This document shows positions 6,283 through 55,472 of a stretch of 64,000 nucleotides of DNA, piece after piece. The notes under the pieces were generated by a model that ran no database searches, was not told where the DNA came from, and was given only the letters and a program-made list of their open reading frames with translations. Position 1 is the stretch's first letter. Each line of letters starts with the position of its first letter. The stretch spans positions 62,001 through 126,000 of the forward strand of contig NZ_MWLK01000016.1 in NCBI RefSeq assembly GCF_002198715.1, written 5' to 3'. The position numbers and the translations under genes were made by a program. The DNA comes from Rhodomicrobium sp. R_RK_3. GTDB taxonomy: Bacteria > Pseudomonadota > Alphaproteobacteria > Rhizobiales > Rhodomicrobiaceae.

Positions 6283-6561
6283 TTAGCGGTCTTCGCGCGT
6301 GTGCCAGAGGCGGAGCACGAAAATCGTCGAGCCCTGGAGCTCGTAGCGGAGCTCGTACTGCCCGACCAGGAGGCGGCGCACTTCGCGCGGGTCGAACTCC
6401 TCTAGCTTTTCGCCGAGGCGCGGATGCTCCAGCAGCCGGACCGGTGCGGCGGTCAGAGATTGAACCGTGCGCGCCGCTACCTTGCGGTTCACCGGCGCCA
6501 GAAATGCGTGCAGACGCGCCAAATCCGAGACGGCCTTGGCGGTCCATTTCAGCTCCATCAT
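6283..6561 (-). CDS. ParE/RelE-type toxin
   Basis: A 92-residue (or 91, if the second ATG is used) protein of the ParE/RelE superfamily. It starts ELKWTAKAVSDLARLHAFL, has the family AARTVQSLTAAPVRLLEHPRLGEKLEEF segment, then VRRLLVGQYELRYELQGSTIFVLRLWHTRED, the usual last strands with a conserved arginine and the terminal LRLWH.R. The start overlaps the stop of the antitoxin gene by four bases. ParE toxins poison DNA gyrase while RelE toxins cut mRNA; this sequence looks ParE-like. Family-level call is firm; target is inferred. Confidence 0.85.
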   Translation of the reverse strand: MMELKWTAKAVSDLARLHAFLAPVNRKVAARTVQSLTAAPVRLLEHPRLGEKLEEFDPREVRRLLVGQYELRYELQGSTIFVLRLWHTREDR

Positions 6562-6818
6562 CGCGGTACCGGCAGCGGGTCCTCCTCATCCAGGCTCTCG
6601 GCCCAGGATTTCACCGCATGATGGTCGATCGCCTCACCGGAATCGACATCGGCCAGAGCCTCGCGCGTCAGCCGGCTACGCTCCTCTTCCTGCTCGACCC
6701 ACGCCATCAGCGCCTGCTTGACGATCCAGCCGCGCGACCGCTCCAGCCTAGCGGCGATCTGGTCCACCTTCTCGGCGAGCGGCAGCGGCACGTGAGCGGT
6801 CAGGACTTTGGTTTCCAT
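6558..6818 (-). CDS. Ribbon-helix-helix (CopG-type) antitoxin
   Basis: An 86-residue protein with an N-terminal ribbon-helix-helix: the strand TKVLTAHVPLPLAEKVDQIA, a helix, then RSRGWIVKQALMAWVEQE, typical of CopG/ParD-type DNA-binding antitoxins. The acidic C-terminal tail (SGEAIDHHAVKSWAESLDEE) would bind the toxin. The ATG at 6818 is preceded by AAAGGA at a good distance, which rules out the in-frame TTG at 6833. It overlaps the toxin start, the standard antitoxin-first order, and probably represses its own promoter. Confidence 0.85.
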   Translation of the reverse strand: METKVLTAHVPLPLAEKVDQIAARLERSRGWIVKQALMAWVEQEEERSRLTREALADVDSGEAIDHHAVKSWAESLDEEDPLPVPR

Positions 6819-6987
6819 CGAGAATCCTTTCAATCAAATCTAATCATAGTGATTGCGATCGATTAATTCAAGGACAAGGCCGGAGCTGACAAAAATGTTG
6901 CTTGGCCCCCGCCCGCGCGAGGGCCAGATTCCGGATTCGATTTTGCGAGTGTTTCCGCACTCCCCATCCCCAGATTGGAGCTAAACC

Positions 6988-7838: not shown

Positions 7839-8582
7839 TCAGGCCGCGCCTTCGTCCCGCACGACCGAACGGCGGCCATAGGCCGAGCGCATGCGGACCG
7901 AGGTCGCGAACAGCCGGGAGATGCCTTCGAGAAAGACATCGAGCGCGTTGGCGATGACGCGGTCCTTGTCCTCCAGCACCTCGAGCCCGTAGAGATGCTT
8001 GCGGACGCCGTAATAGAAGATGCCGCCTTGCAGGAACCAGGCCAGCTCCATCTCGGCGGCGGCGGGTTTCTCCTGCGGCGGCAGGCCGGCCTCATGCCGG
8101 TATTCGACGATGATGCGGGTGAGAATCCGCTCCTGCACGAATTCGATATAGCGGCTGTTGAGGTCGAGGCCCTTCAGGCCGGCGAACAGATAGATGCGCA
8201 GCCATTGCCGGGTGAAGATGGCGTCGGTGTAGGAGCAGTAGAACCGCTCCAGCCGCTCGCGGATCGGCACGGCGCGGTCGGCGAGCAGCGCGTCCCATTC
8301 CGGGTCCCAGCGGTCGAGGAAGACCGAGCGGTAGACCTCCTCGATCAGCTCTTCCTTGCTCGGGAAATAGCGGTAGAGCAGCGGCTGGGTGACGCCGAGC
8401 TTGTTCGCCAGCTCGCGCGTGCCGCCGCCAAAACCTTCCTCGGCGAAAAGTTCGGCGGCCTTCTGGATGAAGTCGCGCTTGCGCTCGCCGGGCGAGAGCC
8501 GCTTCTGCTTCTGGGGCGGCGGGGTCGCGGGCGCCGCGAGTTTTCTTGCTCTTTCGGTCTTCATTCGGGGCATGGGCGTCAT
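7839..8582 (-). CDS. TetR/AcrR-family transcriptional regulator
   Basis: A 247-residue regulator with a basic N-terminal arm, then a TetR helix-turn-helix: IQKAAELFAEEGFGGGTRELANKLGV followed by TQPLLYRYFPSKEELIEEVY, the recognition helix signature. The C-terminal half is the variable ligand-binding domain. The first ATG overlaps the stop of the upstream flavoprotein gene (ATGA), so it is the last gene of that operon; ATGs at 8573 and 8564 are alternative starts. Two similar palindromes, at 10338-10351 and 13588-13601, lie just upstream of genes of the same cluster and are the obvious candidates for its operators, which would make it self-regulating. Confidence 0.88.
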   Translation of the reverse strand: MTPMPRMKTERARKLAAPATPPPQKQKRLSPGERKRDFIQKAAELFAEEGFGGGTRELANKLGVTQPLLYRYFPSKEELIEEVYRSVFLDRWDPEWDALLADRAVPIRERLERFYCSYTDAIFTRQWLRIYLFAGLKGLDLNSRYIEFVQERILTRIIVEYRHEAGLPPQEKPAAAEMELAWFLQGGIFYYGVRKHLYGLEVLEDKDRVIANALDVFLEGISRLFATSVRMRSAYGRRSVVRDEGAA

Positions 8583-9796
8583 AGCACGGGGTTCTCATTG
8601 GGCAGGCCGAGGGCGACCTTACCAAAATTGCCGCCCGCGGCGTCGAAGCTAAACGAGATATGCGCAGCAACCGCAAGCGCGTCGCGAAGCTGGCGCTGCA
8701 CCGCGCCGGACATTGCGAGCCCGCGCGCCCCGCTGATGGCGAACAGCGTCGAGACCGCCTCGGTGCAGAGATTGACGGAGAACGCGCCGTCGCGGCGATA
8801 GCGGTTCTTCTCCAGCATGCCGGGGATGCGGCCGGCGGCGGCGTCCTGCTGGGCGTCGATACAGGCTTGCCGCATGATGAGCCGGGCGGCGTCGATCTTG
8901 GCCGAGGCCTCGGCGATCTTGATCTGGATCGATTGCAGATCGCCGAGCCGGGCGCTGTTGAAGGTCGCGGTGCGCGTGCGCGTCGCCTCCACGTAATCGT
9001 CGAGGCAAGCTTGCGCGTTGCCGAGCGCGATGCCCGACAGCACATAGGGGAACAGCGCGAAGACCGGGATCCTGAACAGCGGCGCCGGATTGACGGCGTG
9101 CCCCGGCGTCGGCCCGCCCGCCATCGACGCCACCGCGACCGTCATGTGTTCCGGCACGAAGGCCTCGGCGATCTCGACATCATGCGAGCCGGTGCCTTGC
9201 AGGCCGAGCGCGGTCCAAGTGTCGATGATTTTGTAATCGCTCCTCGGCACTAGGAAGACGCGGTGCTCCGGCGGGCCGCCCTCGCCCGCGACCATCCCCG
9301 CCAGCATCGACCAGCCGCTCGGCTCGACGCCGGAGCAGAACGGCCAGCGGCCTTTCAGCACATAGCCGCCTTCGGCTTTCTTGGCGCGGCCAGCAGGAAA
9401 CACGAAGGAGGAGGCGATCAGCACATCCGGGCTCTCGTCCCAGATGGCGTTCTGCGCGGCCTCGTCGAACATGGCCAGCATCCAATGATGGCTAGCCAGA
9501 TTCGTGACGTTCCAGGCGACGGAGGCATCGCCCCGCGCCAGCACATCGGCGATGTCGATCATGGCGACGTAATCCAGCTCCGCCCCGCCGACCCGGCGCG
9601 GCTGGCAGATGCGGAACAGGCCCGATGCGTGCAATGCGCGCTCGGTCTCCTCGGGCAGACGCCGCAGCGCCTCGGTCTCCACCGCGCGCTCGCGCAGCAT
9701 CGGCACCAGCGCCTCGGCGCGCTGCATCATGGCGTTGTAGCCGGCGCCCATATTAGCCCAGGGGCGCCTTGGGGCCGTCGCATTGGTCTCGGACAT
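8579..9796 (-). CDS. Acyl-CoA-dehydrogenase-fold flavoprotein (possible monooxygenase)
   Basis: A 405-residue flavoprotein of the acyl-CoA dehydrogenase superfamily, closest in layout to the flavin-dependent hydroxylases of the HsaA/DszC group: RRLPEETERALHASGLFRICQPRRVGGAELD near the N-terminus, GDASVAWNVTNLASHHWMLA in the alpha domain, GRWPFCSGVEPSGWSMLAG in the beta domain, and LQGTGSHDVEIAEAFVPEH. A dehydrogenase catalytic glutamate is not obvious. HsaA-type enzymes hydroxylate ring substrates using reduced flavin from a partner reductase, but none is adjacent. Start is the ATG at 9796 (MSETNA); upstream codons overlap the preceding gap. It lies 25 bases after the VOC gene and overlaps tetR. 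A monooxygenase role is inferred. Confidence 0.8.
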   Translation of the reverse strand: MSETNATAPRRPWANMGAGYNAMMQRAEALVPMLRERAVETEALRRLPEETERALHASGLFRICQPRRVGGAELDYVAMIDIADVLARGDASVAWNVTNLASHHWMLAMFDEAAQNAIWDESPDVLIASSFVFPAGRAKKAEGGYVLKGRWPFCSGVEPSGWSMLAGMVAGEGGPPEHRVFLVPRSDYKIIDTWTALGLQGTGSHDVEIAEAFVPEHMTVAVASMAGGPTPGHAVNPAPLFRIPVFALFPYVLSGIALGNAQACLDDYVEATRTRTATFNSARLGDLQSIQIKIAEASAKIDAARLIMRQACIDAQQDAAAGRIPGMLEKNRYRRDGAFSVNLCTEAVSTLFAISGARGLAMSGAVQRQLRDALAVAAHISFSFDAAGGNFGKVALGLPNENPVL

Positions 9797-9821
9797 CGCG
9801 TCCTCCGCTTTGGGTTGGGCG

Positions 9822-10313
9822 TCAATGCCCGCTGGGGGCGAAATCCGGGCGGTCCAGATAGAGTGAGGCGGCCAGCGCCTCGCCCTCCTGCGGCGCGAAT
9901 TCAGCAAGGCTGCGCAATTCGGGGATGCGCGAGCGGTCGAGCGTCGTCACATCCGGCCAGTCGACTTCGAGCAGATTGCCACCAGGGTCGCGCAGATACA
10001 TCTGCACCGAGCCGTCCGGCAGCTCGTTGATGGCATTGCGGAAGGTGACCGATTCCAGCGCGCCGAGCTTTTTTGCCGCTTCATAGACGGCGTGGAAATC
10101 GTCCACATCGAGCGCGAAATGCTGATAGACCGGCACATGGTCGTCGAGCTGGAAGACGTGGAGCTGTAAATTCCCGCAGCGCAGATATTGCGTGGTGAAA
10201 CCGAAATTATAGGTCGGGATGCGCTCCATGCCGAAAACGGTCTCGTAGAACCGCAGGGACGCCTCCAGGTCTTTCGACCCGATCGACAGATGATTGAAGC
10301 CAAGCGCACGCAT
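9822..10313 (-). CDS. VOC-superfamily enzyme, extradiol-dioxygenase/glyoxalase type
   Basis: A 163-residue protein with the beta-alpha-beta-beta-beta fold of vicinal oxygen chelate enzymes. The metal triad can be read as His8 (GFNHLSI), His65 (YQHFALDV) and Glu116 (GNLLEVDWP), the 2-His-1-Glu set of extradiol dioxygenases and glyoxalase I. The one-repeat length matches glyoxalase-like enzymes more than two-domain extradiol dioxygenases. The ATG at 10313 starts at the conserved strand. A palindrome with possible operator function lies 25 bases upstream. With the neighbouring ring-hydroxylase-like flavoprotein and cyclase-family hydrolase, a ring-cleavage or isomerase step is plausible but not proven. 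Confidence 0.82.
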   Translation of the reverse strand: MRALGFNHLSIGSKDLEASLRFYETVFGMERIPTYNFGFTTQYLRCGNLQLHVFQLDDHVPVYQHFALDVDDFHAVYEAAKKLGALESVTFRNAINELPDGSVQMYLRDPGGNLLEVDWPDVTTLDRSRIPELRSLAEFAPQEGEALAASLYLDRPDFAPSGH

Positions 10314-10337
10314 CTGGGGGTTCCTCACTTGCCTTGA

Positions 10338-10351
10338 TTATCAGTCGATAA
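10338..10351. promoter_or_regulatory. Palindromic operator candidate 1 for the TetR regulator
   Basis: TTATCAGTCGATAA, an inverted repeat with half-sites TTATC and GATAA, within the wider context GATTATC...GATAATTTA. It lies 25 bases upstream of the VOC gene ATG. The same pattern occurs at 13588-13601 upstream of the cyclase-family gene. The sequence match is direct; binding by the TetR protein is inferred. Confidence 0.65.
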
Positions 10352-10383
10352 TTTAGCGTGAGTTGCGCGGCGGGACAAGGCTT

Positions 10384-11157
10384 TCAATCGGCGGTCCAGC
10401 CGCCGTCGAGCATGAGCGAGGAACCCGTCATCAGCGCCGAGGCGTCGGAGGCGAGGAAGATCGCGGCGCCCATCAGGTCCTCGAGCGTGCCGAGCCGCCC
10501 GAGCTTGATCTTGGAGATGACGCTGCGGCGGAAGGCTTCGTCCTCGAAATAAGGCCGCGTCATCGGCGTCTCGATGAAGGTCGGGCAGATGGTGTTGACG
10601 CGGATGGCGTGCGGCCCGAGTTCGATGGCCATGGCACGCGAAAACCCCTCCATCGCCCATTTGGAGGCGCAATAGAGCGAGCGGTTCGGGCCCCCGACAT
10701 GGCCCATCTGCGAGGACACGTTGATGATCGAGCCCGGCTTGCCCGCCGCGATGAGCTTGCGGACGACGGCCTGGGCGGCGAAATAGGCGGCGCGGACATT
10801 GAGGTTGAAGATGGCGTCGAAATCGGCGGGAGGCACGTCGACGAAGGGCTTTGGCCGGTTGGTGCCGGCATTGTTGAAGAGGATGTCGTAGGGCTCGGCG
10901 CGGTCGATGGCGGCGGCGAAGGCTTCGAGATCGGTGACGTCGCAGGCGAGCGTATCGGCGCGCTGGCCGCGCGCGCGGATGGCCTCGGCGGCGGCTTCGA
11001 TCTCGGCCGCGCTACGCGCACAGAGCGTGACATGCGCCCCGGCCTCCGCGAAGGCGGCGGCGACCGCGAGGCCGATGCCGCGCCCGGCTCCGGTCACCAG
11101 CGCCCGCCGCCCGTCGAGGCGGAAGGACGGGGTCTTCGGCAGCTCGTTTGCGTCCAT
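10384..11157 (-). CDS. SDR-family oxidoreductase
   Basis: A 257-residue classical SDR. Motifs: TGAGRGIG at the cofactor site, NNAGTN near residue 95, NVSSQMG with the catalytic serine, and YCASKWA with Tyr and Lys; the C-terminal SSLMLDGGWTAD is typical of 3-oxoacyl/gluconate-type SDRs. Start is the ATG at 11157; the upstream open frame overlaps repeat B and is rejected. It sits inside the TetR cluster, separated from the HisD-like gene by repeat B and from the VOC gene by an operator-like palindrome. Substrate unknown. Confidence 0.87.
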   Translation of the reverse strand: MDANELPKTPSFRLDGRRALVTGAGRGIGLAVAAAFAEAGAHVTLCARSAAEIEAAAEAIRARGQRADTLACDVTDLEAFAAAIDRAEPYDILFNNAGTNRPKPFVDVPPADFDAIFNLNVRAAYFAAQAVVRKLIAAGKPGSIINVSSQMGHVGGPNRSLYCASKWAMEGFSRAMAIELGPHAIRVNTICPTFIETPMTRPYFEDEAFRRSVISKIKLGRLGTLEDLMGAAIFLASDASALMTGSSLMLDGGWTAD

Positions 11158-11198
11158 GGTGTGTTCCCCTGTCCCCGTTCCCCAAAGTTCCCCTACTC

Positions 11199-11297
11199 CG
11201 TCGCCCCGGCCGTCAGAGCCGGGGCCCACTCGCCTCACCTCTTGCCGCAACGCCCGTGGATCTGCGAGTGAGCCCCGGCTCAAGGCCGGGACGACGA
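11199..11297. repeat. Palindromic intergenic repeat, family B
   Basis: CGTCGCCCCGGCCGTCAGAG begins the left arm and continues CCGGGGCCCACTCGCCTC; the right arm has GCGAGTGAGCCCCGGCTCAA and ends GGCCGGGACGACGAG. About 99 bases, placed between the HisD-like and SDR genes. Other copies are at 19357, 60570 and, degenerate, 6171. Confidence 0.8.
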
Positions 11298-11299
11298 GA

Positions 11300-12607
11300 T
11301 TATTCGGCGGCTGCGCCGTATGGCACATTCCGCCCGCCATAGCGCCGAACGCGGATGTTCGCCTGCTCGGCATGGCCGACAAAGCCCTCCAGCATGCACA
11401 GCCGCGAGCAATATTCGCCGACCTTCGCGGAGGCTTCATCCGTCAGCACGCGCTGGTAGGTGCAGGTCTTCAGGAATTTGCCGACCCACAAGCCCCCCGT
11501 ATAGCGCGCCGCCTTCATGGTGGGCAGCGTGTGGTTGGTGCCGATCACCTTGTCGCCATAGGCCACATTGGTGCGCGGGCCGAGGAACAGCGCGCCGTAA
11601 TTGGTCATCCGCTTGAGGAAATAATCCGGGTCGCGCGTCATCACCTGCACATGCTCGGAGGCAATGCGGTCGGCCTCGCGCACCATCTCCTCCTCGTCCT
11701 CGCAGACGACGACCTCGCCATAATCCTCCCAGGCTTTGCCGGCAATGGCCGCGGTCGGCAGGATCTTCAGCAGCCGCTCGATCTCGGCCATGGTGTCGCG
11801 CGCCAGCTTCTCGGAATTGGTGAGCAGGATCGCGGGCGAGTTCGGCCCGTGTTCGGCTTGGCCCAGGAGGTCGGTCGCGCAGATTTCGCCGTCGACGCTG
11901 TCGTCGGCGATCACCAGCGTCTCGGTCGGACCGGCGAACAGGTCGATGCCGACGCGCCCGTAAAGCTGGCGCTTGGCCTCGGCGACGAAGGCATTGCCCG
12001 GCCCGACCAGCATATCGACCGGCGCGATGCTCTCCGTCCCGAGCGCCATCGCCCCGACCGCCTGGATGCCGCCGAGGCAGTAGATCTCATCCGCACCGGC
12101 CATATGCTGGGCGGCGACGATGGCGGCGGCGGGCTTGCCATGGAAGGGCGGCGCGCAGGTGGCGATCCGCTCGACGCCCGCAACTTTCGCGGTGATGATC
12201 GACATATGCGCCGAGGCCACCATCGGATATTTGCCACCGGGCACATAGCAGCCGACCGAATTCACCGGGATGTTCTTATGACCCAGCACGACGCCCGGCA
12301 GCGTCTCGACCTCGATATCCTTCAAGGCGTCGCGCTGGTGCTGGGCAAAGCCGCGCACCTGCTCCTGGGCGAAGCGGATATCGTCCAGATCGCGCTGCGG
12401 GAGCTGCGACAGGCAGTCCTTGATCTCGGCATCGGTGAGCCGGAAATCCTCTCGCTCCCAGCCGTCGAACTTGGCCGAGAGCGCGCGCACGGCCCGATCG
12501 CCGCGCGCCTCGATATCGGCCAGGATGGTCTCGACGGCGGTGCGCACCTGCGCGGCGTCTTCCGCCCGCAAGGCCGCGTCCCGGCCGCGCTTGAGATATT
12601 TCGCCAT
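11300..12607 (-). CDS. HisD-like NAD-dependent dehydrogenase (catabolic paralog)
   Basis: A 435-residue member of the histidinol dehydrogenase family. The zinc-site residues are recognisable: Gln and His in [12 protein letters not shown], the catalytic Glu-His in IASEHVQVM, the [13 protein letters not shown] block, and His in [10 protein letters not shown] near the end. The distinctive [21 protein letters not shown] stretch is typical of catabolic paralogs (sulfopropanediol dehydrogenase HpsN-type and relatives) rather than biosynthetic HisD. No other his gene is near, and it lies in a TetR-flanked catabolic cluster 12 bases downstream of the cyclase-family gene. The start ATG at 12607 follows the GCGCC of the upstream spacer. 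Oxidation of an alcohol to an acid is the likely chemistry; substrate unknown. Confidence 0.82.
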
Positions 12608-12619
12608 GGCGCCTTGTCC

Positions 12620-13570
12620 TTATTTGATCGCCTGTGGATTGATCGGCGAGCCGGCCCCGCCCGGCAGATGCAGCGGCGGCGCGATGAAGAAGAACTCATA
12701 AACCTTGTCGGAGGCGCAATCCTCGGCGAGTTCCTTCAGATAGAAGATCTCGCCCATGGAAATGCCGAGCGCCGGGATCACCACCCAATGCCAGGGCTGG
12801 TTGGCTTCGTTGGTCTCGTTCGGCCGCACCTCACAGCCCCAGGTATCGGAGCAGATCGCGGCGACGTCCTTCTCCTTCAGCCAGAAGCAGGTCTCGAAGG
12901 CAAAGCCCGGCGCCGCGCCGCCCGCGTAGCCCGACCAGTCCTTCTTGGCGAGGCAGCGCTCCTGATGGCCGGTGCGCACGATGACGAAATCGCCCTTGCG
13001 GATCGCCACCCCTTGCGCCGCCGCGCATTCGTCCATGTCGGAATTCGTAATCGCATAGCCGTCGGCGAGCGAATCCAAGCCCTTGAAGCGCGCCATGTCG
13101 AGCAGCACGCCCCGCCCGACCATCTTGTCGCGCGTATGCTCGATGCCGAGTTTTTTCGCGCCCCTAGCGTCGACCAACGTGGCGTCGAAACCATTATACA
13201 TCTTGTCGTCGAGGAAGATGTGGCAGAGCGCGTCCCACTGGGTCGAGGCCTGGCAGGGCATATTGATGGCGTCGTCGGCGTAGCGCAGGTATGGCGCGGG
13301 CTCGTCCTGATTGCCGGCGGCGGCGTCGGTGCCGGTCGCCAGCATGGTGTGGATGGGGTTCCAGCGGCCGCCGAACAGGCCCGACTGGATCGGCTCCTTC
13401 AGCGACAGGCCGAGCGAGAACACCTTGCCCCGCTTCACGAGCCCGGCGGCGCCGACAATGTCGGCGGGGGTCACGTTGTTCAAGGTGCCGATCTGGTCAT
13501 CCTTGCCCCAGCGGCCCCAATTGGAGATCTTTTTCGCCGCATCATAGATGGCTTGCCGGTTCAGGCTCAT
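12620..13570 (-). CDS. Cyclase-family (kynurenine formamidase-like) hydrolase
   Basis: A 316-residue protein of the cyclase/kynurenine formamidase superfamily (PF04199). It has the family NWGRWGKDDQIGTLNNVTP near the N-terminus, the metal site in QWDALCHIF (usually DxxxHxxxHxD-like, here with H only partly retained), GRGVLLDMAR, GDFVIVRTGHQ, and the C-terminal ALGISMGEIFYLKELAEDC. Members hydrolyse cyclic amides or lactones and related compounds. It is the first gene of the minus-strand cluster, with an operator-like palindrome 18 bases upstream of its ATG at 13570. The substrate cannot be named. Confidence 0.82.
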   Translation of the reverse strand: MSLNRQAIYDAAKKISNWGRWGKDDQIGTLNNVTPADIVGAAGLVKRGKVFSLGLSLKEPIQSGLFGGRWNPIHTMLATGTDAAAGNQDEPAPYLRYADDAINMPCQASTQWDALCHIFLDDKMYNGFDATLVDARGAKKLGIEHTRDKMVGRGVLLDMARFKGLDSLADGYAITNSDMDECAAAQGVAIRKGDFVIVRTGHQERCLAKKDWSGYAGGAAPGFAFETCFWLKEKDVAAICSDTWGCEVRPNETNEANQPWHWVVIPALGISMGEIFYLKELAEDCASDKVYEFFFIAPPLHLPGGAGSPINPQAIK

Positions 13571-13587
13571 TGCATCCTCCCAACTGA

Positions 13588-13601
13588 TTATCGACCGATA
13601 A
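13588..13601. promoter_or_regulatory. Palindromic operator candidate 2 for the TetR regulator
   Basis: TTATCGACCGATAA in the context GATTATC...GATAAATTA, 18 bases upstream of the cyclase-family gene. It is a nearly perfect palindrome and matches the site at 10338-10351 in 12 of 14 positions. Proposed target of the TetR protein encoded at 7839-8582 (inference). Confidence 0.65.
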
Positions 13602-51668: not shown

Positions 51669-52607
51669 TTACCCGGCCCGCCCCTCTGGTAGATACGCCG
51701 TCCAGACCGCGTTCAGGCGCGCGGTCTCCTCCTGCAAAATGTCCACGAAAGCCTGCGCCGCCGGGGAGAGCACGCGGCGCGACGGCTCGATCAGCACCAG
51801 CTCGACCGGCAGAATGGGCCCGACGATCGGGTTGATGGTCAAAAGCGGCCGCTCGACATCGGACACCATCATGATGCCGGGCAAAATCGTCACCCAGTCG
51901 GAATTGGCGACGACGCCGAGCGTGCCCATCATGGCGTCGAGCTCGATCATGCGCTCGATGGCGATCCCGTTGGAAACCAGATAGGTCTCGATCAGCGCGC
52001 GCCGGGCATTCTGAGCGCCCGGCACGACGATCTTCAGAGGCGGCAGCGTCTTCAGCACCACCGGCGCCATATGCGTCATGGCCGCGCCGCCTCTCGACAC
52101 CAGGACCTCGGGCGTCCGCAAGAACAATCGGCTCTTCAGGCCCGCCAGCCCCGGAAAGCCCGGCACCACGGCGAAATCCAGAGCGCCTGCCCTCACCTGA
52201 CCCGTCAGCACGGCGCTGTAAGCCTCGACCACCCGCAATTGCACATTCGGATGCGCGGCGATGAAGCGCGACAGGGCCGGTGCCAGCGCGCAGCGGGTCA
52301 TGGTCGGCATCAGCCCGACGGCGATCTCGCCGGTCAGCCCGCCCGCATAGCCGCGCACCGCGCTGTCCGCCGCCTGATAGGCGCGCAGCAATTCGATGCA
52401 GCGGCGATAGTAGCTGTCGCCCGCCGGGGTCGGCGCAACGGTGCCGCGCTCGCGGGAGAACAGGCGCGCGCCGAAACGGTCTTCCAGCTTGCGGATATGC
52501 TGGGAGACGCCCGATTGCGTCGCGTGCTCGCGCTCGGCGGCGGCGGTGAAGGAGCGCTCCTCATAGACGGCGACGAAGAGGCGGATGTCCTTGAAGGTCT
52601 CGGACAA
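51669..52607 (-). CDS. LysR-family transcriptional regulator
   Basis: A 312-residue LysR regulator; N-terminal helix-turn-helix FKDIRLFVAVYEERSFTAAAEREHATQSGVSQHIRKLEDRFGARLFSRERGTVAPT. The effector-binding domain follows. It diverges from the flavin reductase-monooxygenase operon and is its probable controller. The intergenic region is AT-richer (52610-52660) and could hold its T-N11-A site. Confidence 0.87.
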   Translation of the reverse strand: MSETFKDIRLFVAVYEERSFTAAAEREHATQSGVSQHIRKLEDRFGARLFSRERGTVAPTPAGDSYYRRCIELLRAYQAADSAVRGYAGGLTGEIAVGLMPTMTRCALAPALSRFIAAHPNVQLRVVEAYSAVLTGQVRAGALDFAVVPGFPGLAGLKSRLFLRTPEVLVSRGGAAMTHMAPVVLKTLPPLKIVVPGAQNARRALIETYLVSNGIAIERMIELDAMMGTLGVVANSDWVTILPGIMMVSDVERPLLTINPIVGPILPVELVLIEPSRRVLSPAAQAFVDILQEETARLNAVWTAYLPEGRAG

Positions 52608-52783
52608 GCGGCATCAACTTTTCTAATAGGGTTTAGCAAAACATATTATTGGGAGCACGCCCTAAGCGCACGTAGTTTCGTCGGAGGCAGACTGACGCCG
52701 GGCTTTTGGGGAATTTCCTCGATCCTCGGCTGCTCCCTCTCCCATGGGAGAGGGGACGACTGTGCCGTAAGCGAGCGACGGGA

Positions 52784-53350
52784 ATGACCATCCATATGGC
52801 CGACATCGCGGAACAGCCGATCGACGAGCGCCATCTGCGCAACGCGCTGGGGCGCTTCGCGACGGGCGTCACCGTCATCACGACGCGCGCGCCGTCCGGC
52901 AAGCCGGAAGGGCTGACCGCGAACTCCTTCACCGCCGTCTCGCTGCACCCGCCGCTGGTGTCCTGGAGCCTGAAGCGGGCCGCCCCGTCCTATGCCGGTT
53001 TCCTCGCCGCCGATCATTTCGCGGTCAACATTCTCGCCGCCGACCAGCTCGCGCTCTGCCGCCATTTCGCGACCCCGCTCGCGGACAAGTTCGCCGGCAT
53101 CCCCCATGCGGACGGCCTGCACGGCGCGCCGATCCTTGCCGGCTGCCTCGCCTCCTTCGATTGCCGCACCGAGACCACCATCGAGGGCGGCGACCATCAG
53201 ATCTTCATCGGCCGGGTGATGCGCGCGACCTATCGCGACGGCGAGCCGCTGATCTTCAGCGCCGGGCGCCTCTGCCTGCCCGCGCTGATCGTCGAAACCA
53301 CGCCGGCGGGGCCTGACGGCTTCCTGTCGGAGAATTGGGAAGGCTTATGA
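52784..53350 (+). CDS. Flavin reductase family (HpaC/RutF-like) protein
   Basis: A 188-residue flavin reductase: RNALGRFATGVTVITTRAPSGKPEGLTANSFTAVSLHPPLVSWSL, FAVNILAADQLALCRHFA, then GDHQIFIGRVM with the conserved His. Gives reduced flavin to a partner monooxygenase, most likely the LLM enzyme whose start overlaps its stop (ATGA). ATG at 52784 or 52796. Confidence 0.86.
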   Translation: MTIHMADIAEQPIDERHLRNALGRFATGVTVITTRAPSGKPEGLTANSFTAVSLHPPLVSWSLKRAAPSYAGFLAADHFAVNILAADQLALCRHFATPLADKFAGIPHADGLHGAPILAGCLASFDCRTETTIEGGDHQIFIGRVMRATYRDGEPLIFSAGRLCLPALIVETTPAGPDGFLSENWEGL

Positions 53351-54453
53351 AACTCGGCTTCTTCACCATGCCCATCCATCCGGTCGGGCGCAACCTGACC
53401 GAGGTCTTCAAAGAGGACCGGGAGCTGGCGCTGATCGCCGACCGGCTGGGCTTCTCCGAGGGCTATTTCGGCGAGCACATCACCGACGCCGCCGAGACCA
53501 TCACCTCGGCGCTGATCTTCATCGCCTGGGTGCTGAATGATACCAAGAATATCAAGCTCGGCACGGGCACGGTGAACCTGCCGAACCATCACCCGGCCAT
53601 GGTCGCCGCCGAAGTCGCCATGGTCGATCACATGGCCGAGGGGCGTTTCATCTTCGGCATTAGCCCCGGCGGCCTGCTGTCGGATGCCGAGCTGTTCGGC
53701 AATCTCGACAAGGACCGCACGGCGATGTTCGTTGAGTCCATCGACCACATCCTGAACATCTGGGCCGGCGAGCCGCCGTACAATCTCAAGGGCCAGCACT
53801 GGACCATCTCGATCGAGCGCCAGACCATCAAGGAGATCGGCCAGGGCTACATCCACAAGCCCTATCAGCGCCCGCATCCGCCCATCGTCGTTACGGCGGT
53901 GGCGCCGTTCTCCAAGGGCGTCACGGAAGCTGCCGCGCGGGGCTGGGAGCCGATCTCGGCGAATTTCCTGCTGCCGGTCTGGGTGAAGTCGCATTGGCCA
54001 AAATACGCCGAAGGCTGCGCCAAGGGCGGGCGCGCGGCCGATCCGGCCAATTGGCGCGTCGCCAAGAGCATTTTCGTCGCCGACGACATGGTGATGGCCA
54101 AGCGCTATGCCACCGAGCCGGGCGGCCCGTATTTCCACTATTTCAATTCGCTGGCGACGAAGCTCGTGAAGAATGGGCGCGGCAACCTGTTCAAGGCCGA
54201 CCAGAGCGCGCCGGATTCCTCGGTGACGCCGGAAGGCGTGGTCAGGGATCTCGTCATCTGGGGCACGCCCGAGAAGGTCGCCGACGACCTGCTCGCCTTC
54301 CGCGACGAGGTCGGCGATTTCGGCACGCTGCTCTATGCCGGCTTCGATTGGGTGGACCGCGATCTCGGTATCCGCTCGATGGAGCTGATGGCGGAGGAGG
54401 TGATGCCCGCCGTGAACCGCGCCATCGGCACAAAAAGCGAGGCCGCGGAATGA
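53347..54453 (+). CDS. LLM-class flavin-dependent monooxygenase
   Basis: A 368-residue bacterial luciferase-like monooxygenase: LGFFTMPIHPVGRNLTEVFKEDRELALIADRLGFSEGYFGEHITDA, IKLGTGTVNLPNHHPAMVAAEVAMVDHMAEGRFIFGISPGG, WGTPEKVADDLLAF. Uses reduced FMN from the flavin reductase to oxidise a substrate, as in alkane, sulfonate or aminopolycarboxylate systems. Overlaps both neighbours. Confidence 0.88.
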   Translation: MKLGFFTMPIHPVGRNLTEVFKEDRELALIADRLGFSEGYFGEHITDAAETITSALIFIAWVLNDTKNIKLGTGTVNLPNHHPAMVAAEVAMVDHMAEGRFIFGISPGGLLSDAELFGNLDKDRTAMFVESIDHILNIWAGEPPYNLKGQHWTISIERQTIKEIGQGYIHKPYQRPHPPIVVTAVAPFSKGVTEAAARGWEPISANFLLPVWVKSHWPKYAEGCAKGGRAADPANWRVAKSIFVADDMVMAKRYATEPGGPYFHYFNSLATKLVKNGRGNLFKADQSAPDSSVTPEGVVRDLVIWGTPEKVADDLLAFRDEVGDFGTLLYAGFDWVDRDLGIRSMELMAEEVMPAVNRAIGTKSEAAE

Positions 54454-55472
54454 TCCGGGTAGCGGTCGCGGGGCTCGGCTGGTGGGGCAAGCATATCGTG
54501 CGGCGCATGGCCGGGTCGGAGCTGGTGCGGATCACCACCGCCGTGGAGACGAACCCGGCGCTCGCCTCCTTCGCGGCGGAGCACGGGCTGGACTTCCGCT
54601 CCACGCTCGATGAGGTTTTGCGCGACGGCGAGATTGACGCCGTCATCCTGTGCACGCCACATTCGGCGCACACGGGTCAAGTGCTGGCGGCGGCGGCCGC
54701 GGGCAAGCATGTGTTCTGCGAAAAGCCGCTGGCGCTGACCCGCGCCGACGCGGCCCGCAGCGTCGCCGCCTGCTCCGATGCCGGCGTCGTGCTCGGCATC
54801 GGGCATGAGCGGCGCTATGAGCCCGGCATGGCCGAGATCGCCCGGCTGGTGCGCGAGGGCGAGCTCGGCACGATCATGCATGTCGAGGCCGATTTCAGCC
54901 ATGACAAGCTTGCCAACGTCCCGCCCGGCGACTGGCGCACCGCGCCGAAAGACGCGCCCGCCGCCGGCATGACCGCCATGGGCATCCACCTGACCGACGC
55001 CTTCGTGCATCTGTTCGGACCTATCGCCGAGGTCTTCGCGATGACTGCCAGTCGGGTGACCTATCCCGACAATGGCGATGTGCTGAGCGTGCAATGCCGT
55101 TTCGCCTCCGGCGCGACGGGGCATCTGAACGCCATCCTGGTGACGCCGCTCTACATCAATTTCGTGGTGTTCGGTTCGGACGCCTGGGCGGAGCTGCGCA
55201 ACCACACCCATCCCGACACGCCCGGCCCCTCGACGCTGACCGTGCAGCACCGCGACGGCCGCCGCGACGTGCGCCAGTTCGCGTGGACCGATACGGTGCG
55301 CGCCAATATCGAGCAGTTCGCCCGCGCCGTGACGGGCGAGGCGCCCTACCCGTTCACCGACGCCGAGAAGATCGGCAACATCGCCGCGCTGGAGGCCATC
55401 TGCCAATCGGCAGCGACCGGGCAGGCCGTGCCGGTTCCGCCCCACGCGGACCCAGCCAAGGCGCCCGCGTAA
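54450..55472 (+). CDS. Gfo/Idh/MocA-family oxidoreductase
   Basis: A 340-residue NAD(P)-dependent oxidoreductase with VAVAGLGWWGKHIVRRMAGS (Rossmann) and AAAGKHVFCEKPLALT (the EKP motif with catalytic Lys). The C-terminal part is the beta-sheet domain. ATG overlaps the LLM stop. Its substrate may be the product of the monooxygenase; inferred. Confidence 0.87.
   Translation: MIRVAVAGLGWWGKHIVRRMAGSELVRITTAVETNPALASFAAEHGLDFRSTLDEVLRDGEIDAVILCTPHSAHTGQVLAAAAAGKHVFCEKPLALTRADAARSVAACSDAGVVLGIGHERRYEPGMAEIARLVREGELGTIMHVEADFSHDKLANVPPGDWRTAPKDAPAAGMTAMGIHLTDAFVHLFGPIAEVFAMTASRVTYPDNGDVLSVQCRFASGATGHLNAILVTPLYINFVVFGSDAWAELRNHTHPDTPGPSTLTVQHRDGRRDVRQFAWTDTVRANIEQFARAVTGEAPYPFTDAEKIGNIAALEAICQSAATGQAVPVPPHADPAKAPA

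Follow-up and report, generated by a model that had tools for sequence, protein, structure and literature searches.

A conserved palindrome connects a TetR-family regulator with a probable scattered catabolic regulon in Rhodomicrobium and other Alphaproteobacteria

Six minus-strand genes running from 13570 to 7839 in a 64,000-nucleotide stretch of contig NZ_MWLK01000016.1 of Rhodomicrobium sp. R_RK_3 (this whole stretch is called the window; the genome comprises 5,785,296 bases, 5.79 Mb) encode, in order, a cyclase-family hydrolase, a HisD-like dehydrogenase, a short-chain dehydrogenase (SDR), a VOC protein, an ACAD-fold flavoprotein and a TetR-family regulator. Two 14-base palindromes accompany the cluster, namely TTATCGACCGATAA (candidate operator O2, 13588–13601) ahead of the cyclase-HisD-SDR unit and TTATCAGTCGATAA (candidate operator O1, 10338–10351) in the gap between the SDR and VOC genes. 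Comparative sequence evidence makes the TetR protein (7839–8582) the likely pathway-specific regulator of a scattered catabolic regulon, which it would control through TTATCRNNYGATAA-type operators, and O1 and O2 are very probably where the cluster's own regulator binds.

Both palindromes were recovered by pattern search at the places given in the initial annotation of the window, and its distances were borne out: O1 lies 25 bases upstream of the VOC ATG (10313) and O2 18 bases upstream of the cyclase ATG (13570), and both starts translate. A TATAAT (13607–13602), read by eye in the sequence, directly adjoins O2. The pattern TTATCNNNNGATAA occurs twice in the window against a chance expectation of 0.01, and none of 100 shuffles held two. 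Across the genome it is found six times and the reversed control pattern twice, while the tighter TTATCRNNYGATAA occurs five times and its control once. The genome-wide search proposed with the annotation thus found a palindrome that is not widespread, and five of its six places are beside gene families that neighbour the TetR orthologue elsewhere. Among 101 genomes, relatives of TetR at 50–51% identity are present in three others (G038, G064 and G100). In each of them palindromes lie by TetR, cyclase or HisD genes; those of G064 and G100 match exactly, those of G038 with one mismatch. Genome contigs of 84,980 species were further scanned with an alignment of the four TetR proteins, and the best 80 of 307 confirmed loci were fetched. 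TTATCNNNNGATAA with up to one mismatch is present in 79 of these 80 (exact in 49; the exception is L147), and a site lies less than 3 kb from tetR in 75 of the 77 loci in which this gene was delimited (exact in 47). Palindromes upstream of the regulator's own and neighbouring units are therefore kept together with TetR; the annotation had expected such conservation in relatives that keep the cluster. The link to TetR that it suggested accordingly appears sound on comparative genomics; what it missed is that the cluster would be one part of a scattered regulon. A search of nine whole genomes drawn from the 80 loci gave 19 exact TTATCRNNYGATAA sites, against one for the control. Fifteen of them are less than 18 kb from tetR. 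Each of the nine fetched loci concerned had already shown an exact site, which accounts for ten of the 15, so that five of the nine newly found sites are this close. The seven genomes of the same family have neither a close TetR orthologue nor an exact site.

The half-site itself stands out. TTATC, with 58 exact and 208 near sites, tops all 160 half-sites composed of four A/T and one G/C; the next best of the other 159 reach 4 exact and 75 near sites, and the medians are 0 and 10. In 79 of the fetched loci (L129 was left out), 175 of 205 near sites were outside predicted genes and 189 of 205 were between −60 and 250 bases from a predicted start, compared with 85 and 120 of 404 for ten control half-sites pooled. 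The same gene prediction rule counts 84% of the sequence as coding. Chance or AT-rich background palindromes are ruled out by the window shuffles, the genome count, and the half-site and intergenic controls.

Several of the remaining sites in the genome precede further candidate units. On contig C8, TTATCGACTGATTA (position 172471, one mismatch) lies ~80 bases before a molybdenum (Mo)-hydroxylase operon encoding flavin adenine dinucleotide (FAD), 2Fe-2S and large subunits, which is followed by branched-chain-type ABC genes; relatives of these Mo-hydroxylase and ABC genes in the fetched loci are 61–84% identical. An exact site on C23 (56805) separates two divergent genes, one of 6PGDH type and the other for GlcG/HbpS. 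The 6PGDH gene is followed on its own strand by hydrolase genes and branched-chain-type ABC genes, the latter named by their match to annotated genes of pRL8 from Rhizobium johnstonii 3841, and further along by an amidohydrolase 78% identical to those in the fetched loci. This divergent 6PGDH/GlcG pair with a site between its members recurs in L077 and L133 (Aquabacter). On C27, two exact sites (208991 and 209143) precede an NMT1-type ABC operon, which extends into genes for an unnamed protein, GntR, LVIVD and CobW. A site before an NMT1-type binding protein is also found in L078, L140 and L161; in the latter two (Ancylobacter) it is exact, about 160–190 bases before a binding protein 82–85% identical, and the GntR, LVIVD and CobW genes adjoin TetR itself. 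Within L078 (7959–10855), the NMT1-type ABC operon with its palindromes adjoins genes that, by eye, resemble photosynthetic reaction-centre pufC, pufM and pufL. No convincing unit was recognised at the one-mismatch sites on C7, C30 and C36, the C7 site being inside another, distant Mo-hydroxylase operon. From the recurring neighbours, we infer that all these units form one pathway.

Sites are concentrated before particular gene families. With up to one mismatch and −60 to 350 bases of the gene start as the range, and 87 loci grouped, sites were counted before 37 of 39 Mo-hydroxylase FAD-subunit genes, 27 of 32 cyclase genes, 12 of 14 VOC genes and 12 of 12 DctP genes; the background is 248 of all 1582 open reading frames (ORFs). 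Four unrelated kinds of transporter genes recur among the units: branched-chain-type ABC, NMT1-type ABC, TRAP and tripartite tricarboxylate. A PuuE-like deacetylase-fold hydrolase recurs in the fetched loci, as does a luciferase-type monooxygenase, whose relative in the window is nearest to diketocamphane monooxygenase. The window module at 51669–55472 comprises a LysR gene, a flavin reductase, a luciferase-type monooxygenase (68% identical to those of the fetched loci) and a GFO/IDH oxidoreductase (61%); its relatives are near TetR elsewhere, and no palindrome with up to one mismatch is present at the module here.

The gene products of the cluster, all encoded on the minus strand, belong to recognisable families. 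The cyclase-family (PF04199) putative metal-dependent hydrolase (12620–13570, 316 residues) scores 77.9 bits against a cut-off of 23.1 and has one solved-structure match, the uncharacterised 5ibz. The HisD/HpsN-like dehydrogenase (11300–12607, 435 residues; Histidinol_dh, PF00815) reaches 446.9 with TIGR00069 (cut-off 243.8), and its nearest solved relatives are HpsN/dihydroxypropanesulfonate (DHPS) dehydrogenases: sulfopropanediol 3-dehydrogenase 8v35 (400.6 bits) ranks above histidinol dehydrogenase 4g07 (263.2 bits), 8v37 and 9cp9 (variants of 8v35) and 8wwe are also among the best matches, and the GQAEHG, SEH, NHxLPT and EGxxxHA motifs are common to the HisD-like protein and 8v35. The SDR (10384–11157, 257 residues; Pfam adh_short, scanned with 15 extra residues) presumably starts at the ATG at 11157. 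The single-domain VOC protein (9822–10313) is a putative extradiol dioxygenase, the model of which has as its nearest structures 3r4q (glyoxalase-annotated), L-DOPA dioxygenase 6on3 and, only slightly lower, FosA proteins; the three kinds rank together. Its H8, H65 and E116, counted from the ATG at 10313, are invariant in 11 aligned proteins and kept in 14 of 14 sequences, the window's included, and by position are the putative H-H-E metal ligands. The flavoprotein (8579–9796, predicted start) matches ACAD domains in Pfam, but in NCBIfam and the PDB it scores best with HsaA and C2-type oxygenases, the nearest solved structure being 2rfq (230.9 bits to HsaA). We therefore describe it as the oxygenase part of an HsaA-like flavin-dependent monooxygenase. 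It was rejected as an acyl-CoA dehydrogenase, its nearest families being HsaA-type and C2-type oxygenases, and as HsaA proper, NCBIfam NF045629 giving 315 bits against a cut-off of 450. There is no flavin reductase gene in the window cluster. The TetR protein has a TetR_N helix-turn-helix domain (54.6 bits, cut-off 24) and an all-helical model with a predicted local distance difference test (pLDDT) score of 89.9, and the first codon of its gene overlaps the stop of the monooxygenase gene. Pfam thus agrees with the families and the TetR assignment of the initial annotation, and the full H-H-E triad it reported for the VOC protein is borne out by residue position; its 'ACAD' protein is nearer to HsaA-type monooxygenases. 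Outside the cluster, at 6283–6833 on the minus strand, two small overlapping ORFs resemble by eye a RelE/ParE-type toxin and its antitoxin.

Taken together, these enzymes and the transporters suit a pathway in which a small aromatic or N-heteroaromatic acid is oxidised, its ring opened and an amide or lactone hydrolysed; to judge from the enzymes, oxidation and ring opening of such an acid is the most likely route. Of known enzymes, quinoline 2-oxidoreductase is closest to the Mo-hydroxylase large subunit of L094. The literature searched, which covered few subscription journals, yielded no described pathway or regulator that fits the gene set. Homarine, Aquabacter and progesterone-type literature leads did not match the gene set, nor did auxin loci in the available part of their description. 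An indole-type (iif/ind) route, in which a two-component flavin monooxygenase and an SDR act before a PF04199 hydrolase opens the oxidised indole ring, has some, rather low, probability. XiaF, which oxidises indole, is another match of the window monooxygenase (150.7 bits), and 34 of the 87 loci have a flavin reductase gene, which adjoins the monooxygenase gene in 26; HsaA is however the closer match at 230.9 bits. The indole cluster of Providencia rettgeri includes a PF04199 cyclase, an SDR, a monooxygenase and a flavin reductase, but its regulator is of the AraC type and the gene table available for it lists no HisD-like, VOC or Mo-hydroxylase gene (PMC9871250).

As for regulation, TetR would act as a dimer, binding a TTATCRNNYGATAA-type operator where each unit begins. 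Within the presumed operon boundaries, O2 would control cyclase-HisD-SDR and O1 VOC-monooxygenase-TetR, and in the latter case TetR would also limit its own synthesis. A pathway substrate or intermediate would release TetR, whereupon the units would be expressed together, and the same operator type may govern the Mo-hydroxylase/ABC, the 6PGDH-led and GlcG, and the NMT1-type ABC units elsewhere in the genome. That TetR binds these sites and activates, or both represses and activates, seems improbable. Two sites about 23–130 bases apart, one often of a weaker TTATC....GAAAA form, are found in some loci and would suit an activator, as would the presence of HapR/SmcR/LuxR-type regulators, including LuxR in an activation complex, among the nearest folds. 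However, the fold search returned general TetR folds only, the match to LuxR types is general to the family, and the distances of 18 and 25 bases from the starts in the window are those that repression predicts. Weaker TTATC....GAAAA sites lie 75–86 bases from the main site, before a cyclase or HisD gene, at 9082 in L086 and similarly in L087, L089, L136 and L140. Very improbable is the reading that the palindromes are operators of another regulator, such as a nearby GntR or LysR, with TetR as a bystander. GntR (FadR type) and LysR genes do recur near the units, but the loci were fetched by TetR alone and yet 79 of the 80 have sites, whereas 9 of the 87 grouped loci have the GntR cluster and 11 the LysR cluster. 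Moreover, binding to this form of sequence is proven for a TetR-family protein, FhtR.

The probable TetR regulon appears to extend to R. johnstonii 3841. On pRL8 (locus L129), homologues of tetR (RL_RS25340), cyclase (RL_RS25345), SDR (RL_RS25350) and hisD (RL_RS25370) encode proteins 57, 85, 62 and 71% identical to those of the window, and one palindrome lies between tetR and the cyclase gene and one beyond tetR. A 2011 transcriptome reported that pRL80036, there called N-formylkynurenine formamidase, is up 6–10 fold and pRL80037, a short-chain dehydrogenase, 2.5–3.5 fold in the pea rhizosphere, and that CoxMSL-like, CoxG and ABC genes near them are pea-specific (PMC3333776). By gene order, pRL80036 would be the cyclase and pRL80037 the SDR, and tetR would be pRL80035. 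The label and induction of pRL80036 speak for a tryptophan/kynurenine route, the chances of which we nevertheless consider slim. The one solved-structure match of the cyclase is the uncharacterised 5ibz, and neither tryptophan dioxygenase nor kynureninase is among the named family representatives, though no search was aimed at these two enzymes. A sulfonate (DHPS) route, to which the best solved matches of the HisD-like enzyme (8v35 with its variants 8v37 and 9cp9, and 8wwe), nearest to HpsN, would point, is highly improbable, as oxygenases, Mo-hydroxylase and ring hydrolases are not known to take part in it.

Regarding the regulon as a whole, we tentatively propose that a widespread and undescribed alphaproteobacterial regulon, defined by one TetR family and TTATCRNNYGATAA operators, may employ a Mo-hydroxylase, two flavin monooxygenases, a one-domain ring-cleaving dioxygenase, a PF04199 hydrolase, a HisD-like dehydrogenase and interchangeable transporters (branched-chain-type ABC, NMT1-type ABC, TRAP and tripartite tricarboxylate) to consume a single class of N-heteroaromatic acids, and may be behind part of the pRL8 pea-specific response. 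The operator ties together units on three contigs of the Rhodomicrobium genome and in many Alphaproteobacteria, and substrate-orphan enzymes and several kinds of transporter can therefore be assigned to one regulon. For the genes reported in 2011 from a region of pRL8 specific to the pea rhizosphere, it puts forward both a candidate regulator and a candidate operator, so that the exudate compound acting as inducer can be sought by experiment. The interest of the system rests on this reach of the regulon and on the pea link.

Several observations weigh against TetR control of a scattered regulon. The formal sigma-70 scan lists no promoter at O1 or O2 (2 matches elsewhere, 1.2 expected), and promoter overlap is hence not established. 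The locus counts are not independent because the 80 loci are related, many being Bradyrhizobium or Afipia, and conservation of the recognition helix is partly built in because QPL[LI]YRYF, one of the two search patterns, covers the helix. Site rates are lower for monooxygenase (27 of 50), luciferase-type (17 of 39), HisD (10 of 19), 6PGDH (7 of 19) and tetR (17 of 80) genes; when predicted operon heads are counted, the respective numbers are 38, 21, 12, 9 and 48. On C8, an exact site at 11369 (L067, 9369) lies 77 bases upstream of a sorbosone-dehydrogenase-like gene paired with a cytochrome c gene and has no counterpart in the fetched relatives; it may mark a further regulon unit or be due to chance. 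Four of the 19 whole-genome sites are far from tetR. The pRL8 Mo-hydroxylase large subunit is only 29% identical to one under TTATCRNNYGATAA-type operators, and at this distance it provides no evidence for a Mo-hydroxylase under these operators. Further, exact sites are present in 25 of the 101 genomes, the Rhodomicrobium genome among them, and because 21 of these 25 lack a close TetR orthologue the motif cannot serve as a diagnostic by itself; the idea that the sites are specific by sequence alone was rejected on this count. Finally, a blind test in genomes that have the TetR orthologue placed one exact G038 site (L174) near no regulon family. In the same test, the neighbours of two further G064 sites (L173) were an SDR gene and a GFO/IDH gene (both 36%), genes for ABC ATPases and permeases (27–47%) and PuuE-like genes (52 and 34%).

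The surroundings of sites and genes away from the TetR orthologue were also inspected. Of 16 regions around sites in seven genomes without a close TetR orthologue, one contained a generic ABC ATPase (36%) and another contained SDRs (42 and 33%); no other regulon family was present. A second TetR subfamily, 42–47% identical (L073 to L076), has no exact palindrome nearby and therefore probably uses a different operator; its recognition helix reads TQSLLFNYF or TQALLYQYF. In L073 and L074 this sister TetR is situated by Mo-hydroxylase-type and TRAP-type genes, an identification made by eye and from the 2Fe-2S protein, which matches at 48%. SDR-cyclase-HisD operons (41–67% identical) in the small genomes G010 and G060 (L082 and L084; 1.3–1.4 Mb) are without TetR and have no site at their starts.

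Among known systems, the indole clusters are the nearest described pathway logic found. The iif/ind clusters (for example P. rettgeri GS-A to GS-D) share with the window locus a PF04199 cyclase, an SDR and a flavin monooxygenase, and their flavin reductase has counterparts in relatives of the locus. The window cluster itself was rejected as an iif/ind cluster, having TetR and neither AraC nor a flavin reductase. HsaAB, the 3-HSA hydroxylase of the steroid route, is related through HsaA, the best family match and nearest solved structure for the monooxygenase; it differs in that the monooxygenase falls below the family cut-off and the window cluster lacks a flavin reductase. HpsN, sulfopropanediol 3-dehydrogenase, shares active-site motifs with the HisD-like protein, to which it is the nearest solved structure, but the neighbourhood and probable substrate are not alike. 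The pRL8 locus differs from the window in having no VOC or HsaA-like gene in its 30 kb stretch, and the available text of PMC3333776 makes no mention of a regulator or operators. The closest parallel on the regulatory side is FhtR, the TetR-family haem sensor of Enterococcus faecalis, for which binding to P1 TTATCAATCGATAA and P2 TTATCGATTGATAA was reported from gel shifts with mutated sites (PMC7858072), indicating that TetR proteins do read sequences of the TTATCRNNYGATAA form. FhtR controls a haem efflux pump in a Gram-positive bacterium, and the likeness drawn here is one of operators, 14-base palindromes of the form TTATCRNNYGATAA at a promoter. As a regulatory system, the one described here is an ordinary TetR-operator circuit.

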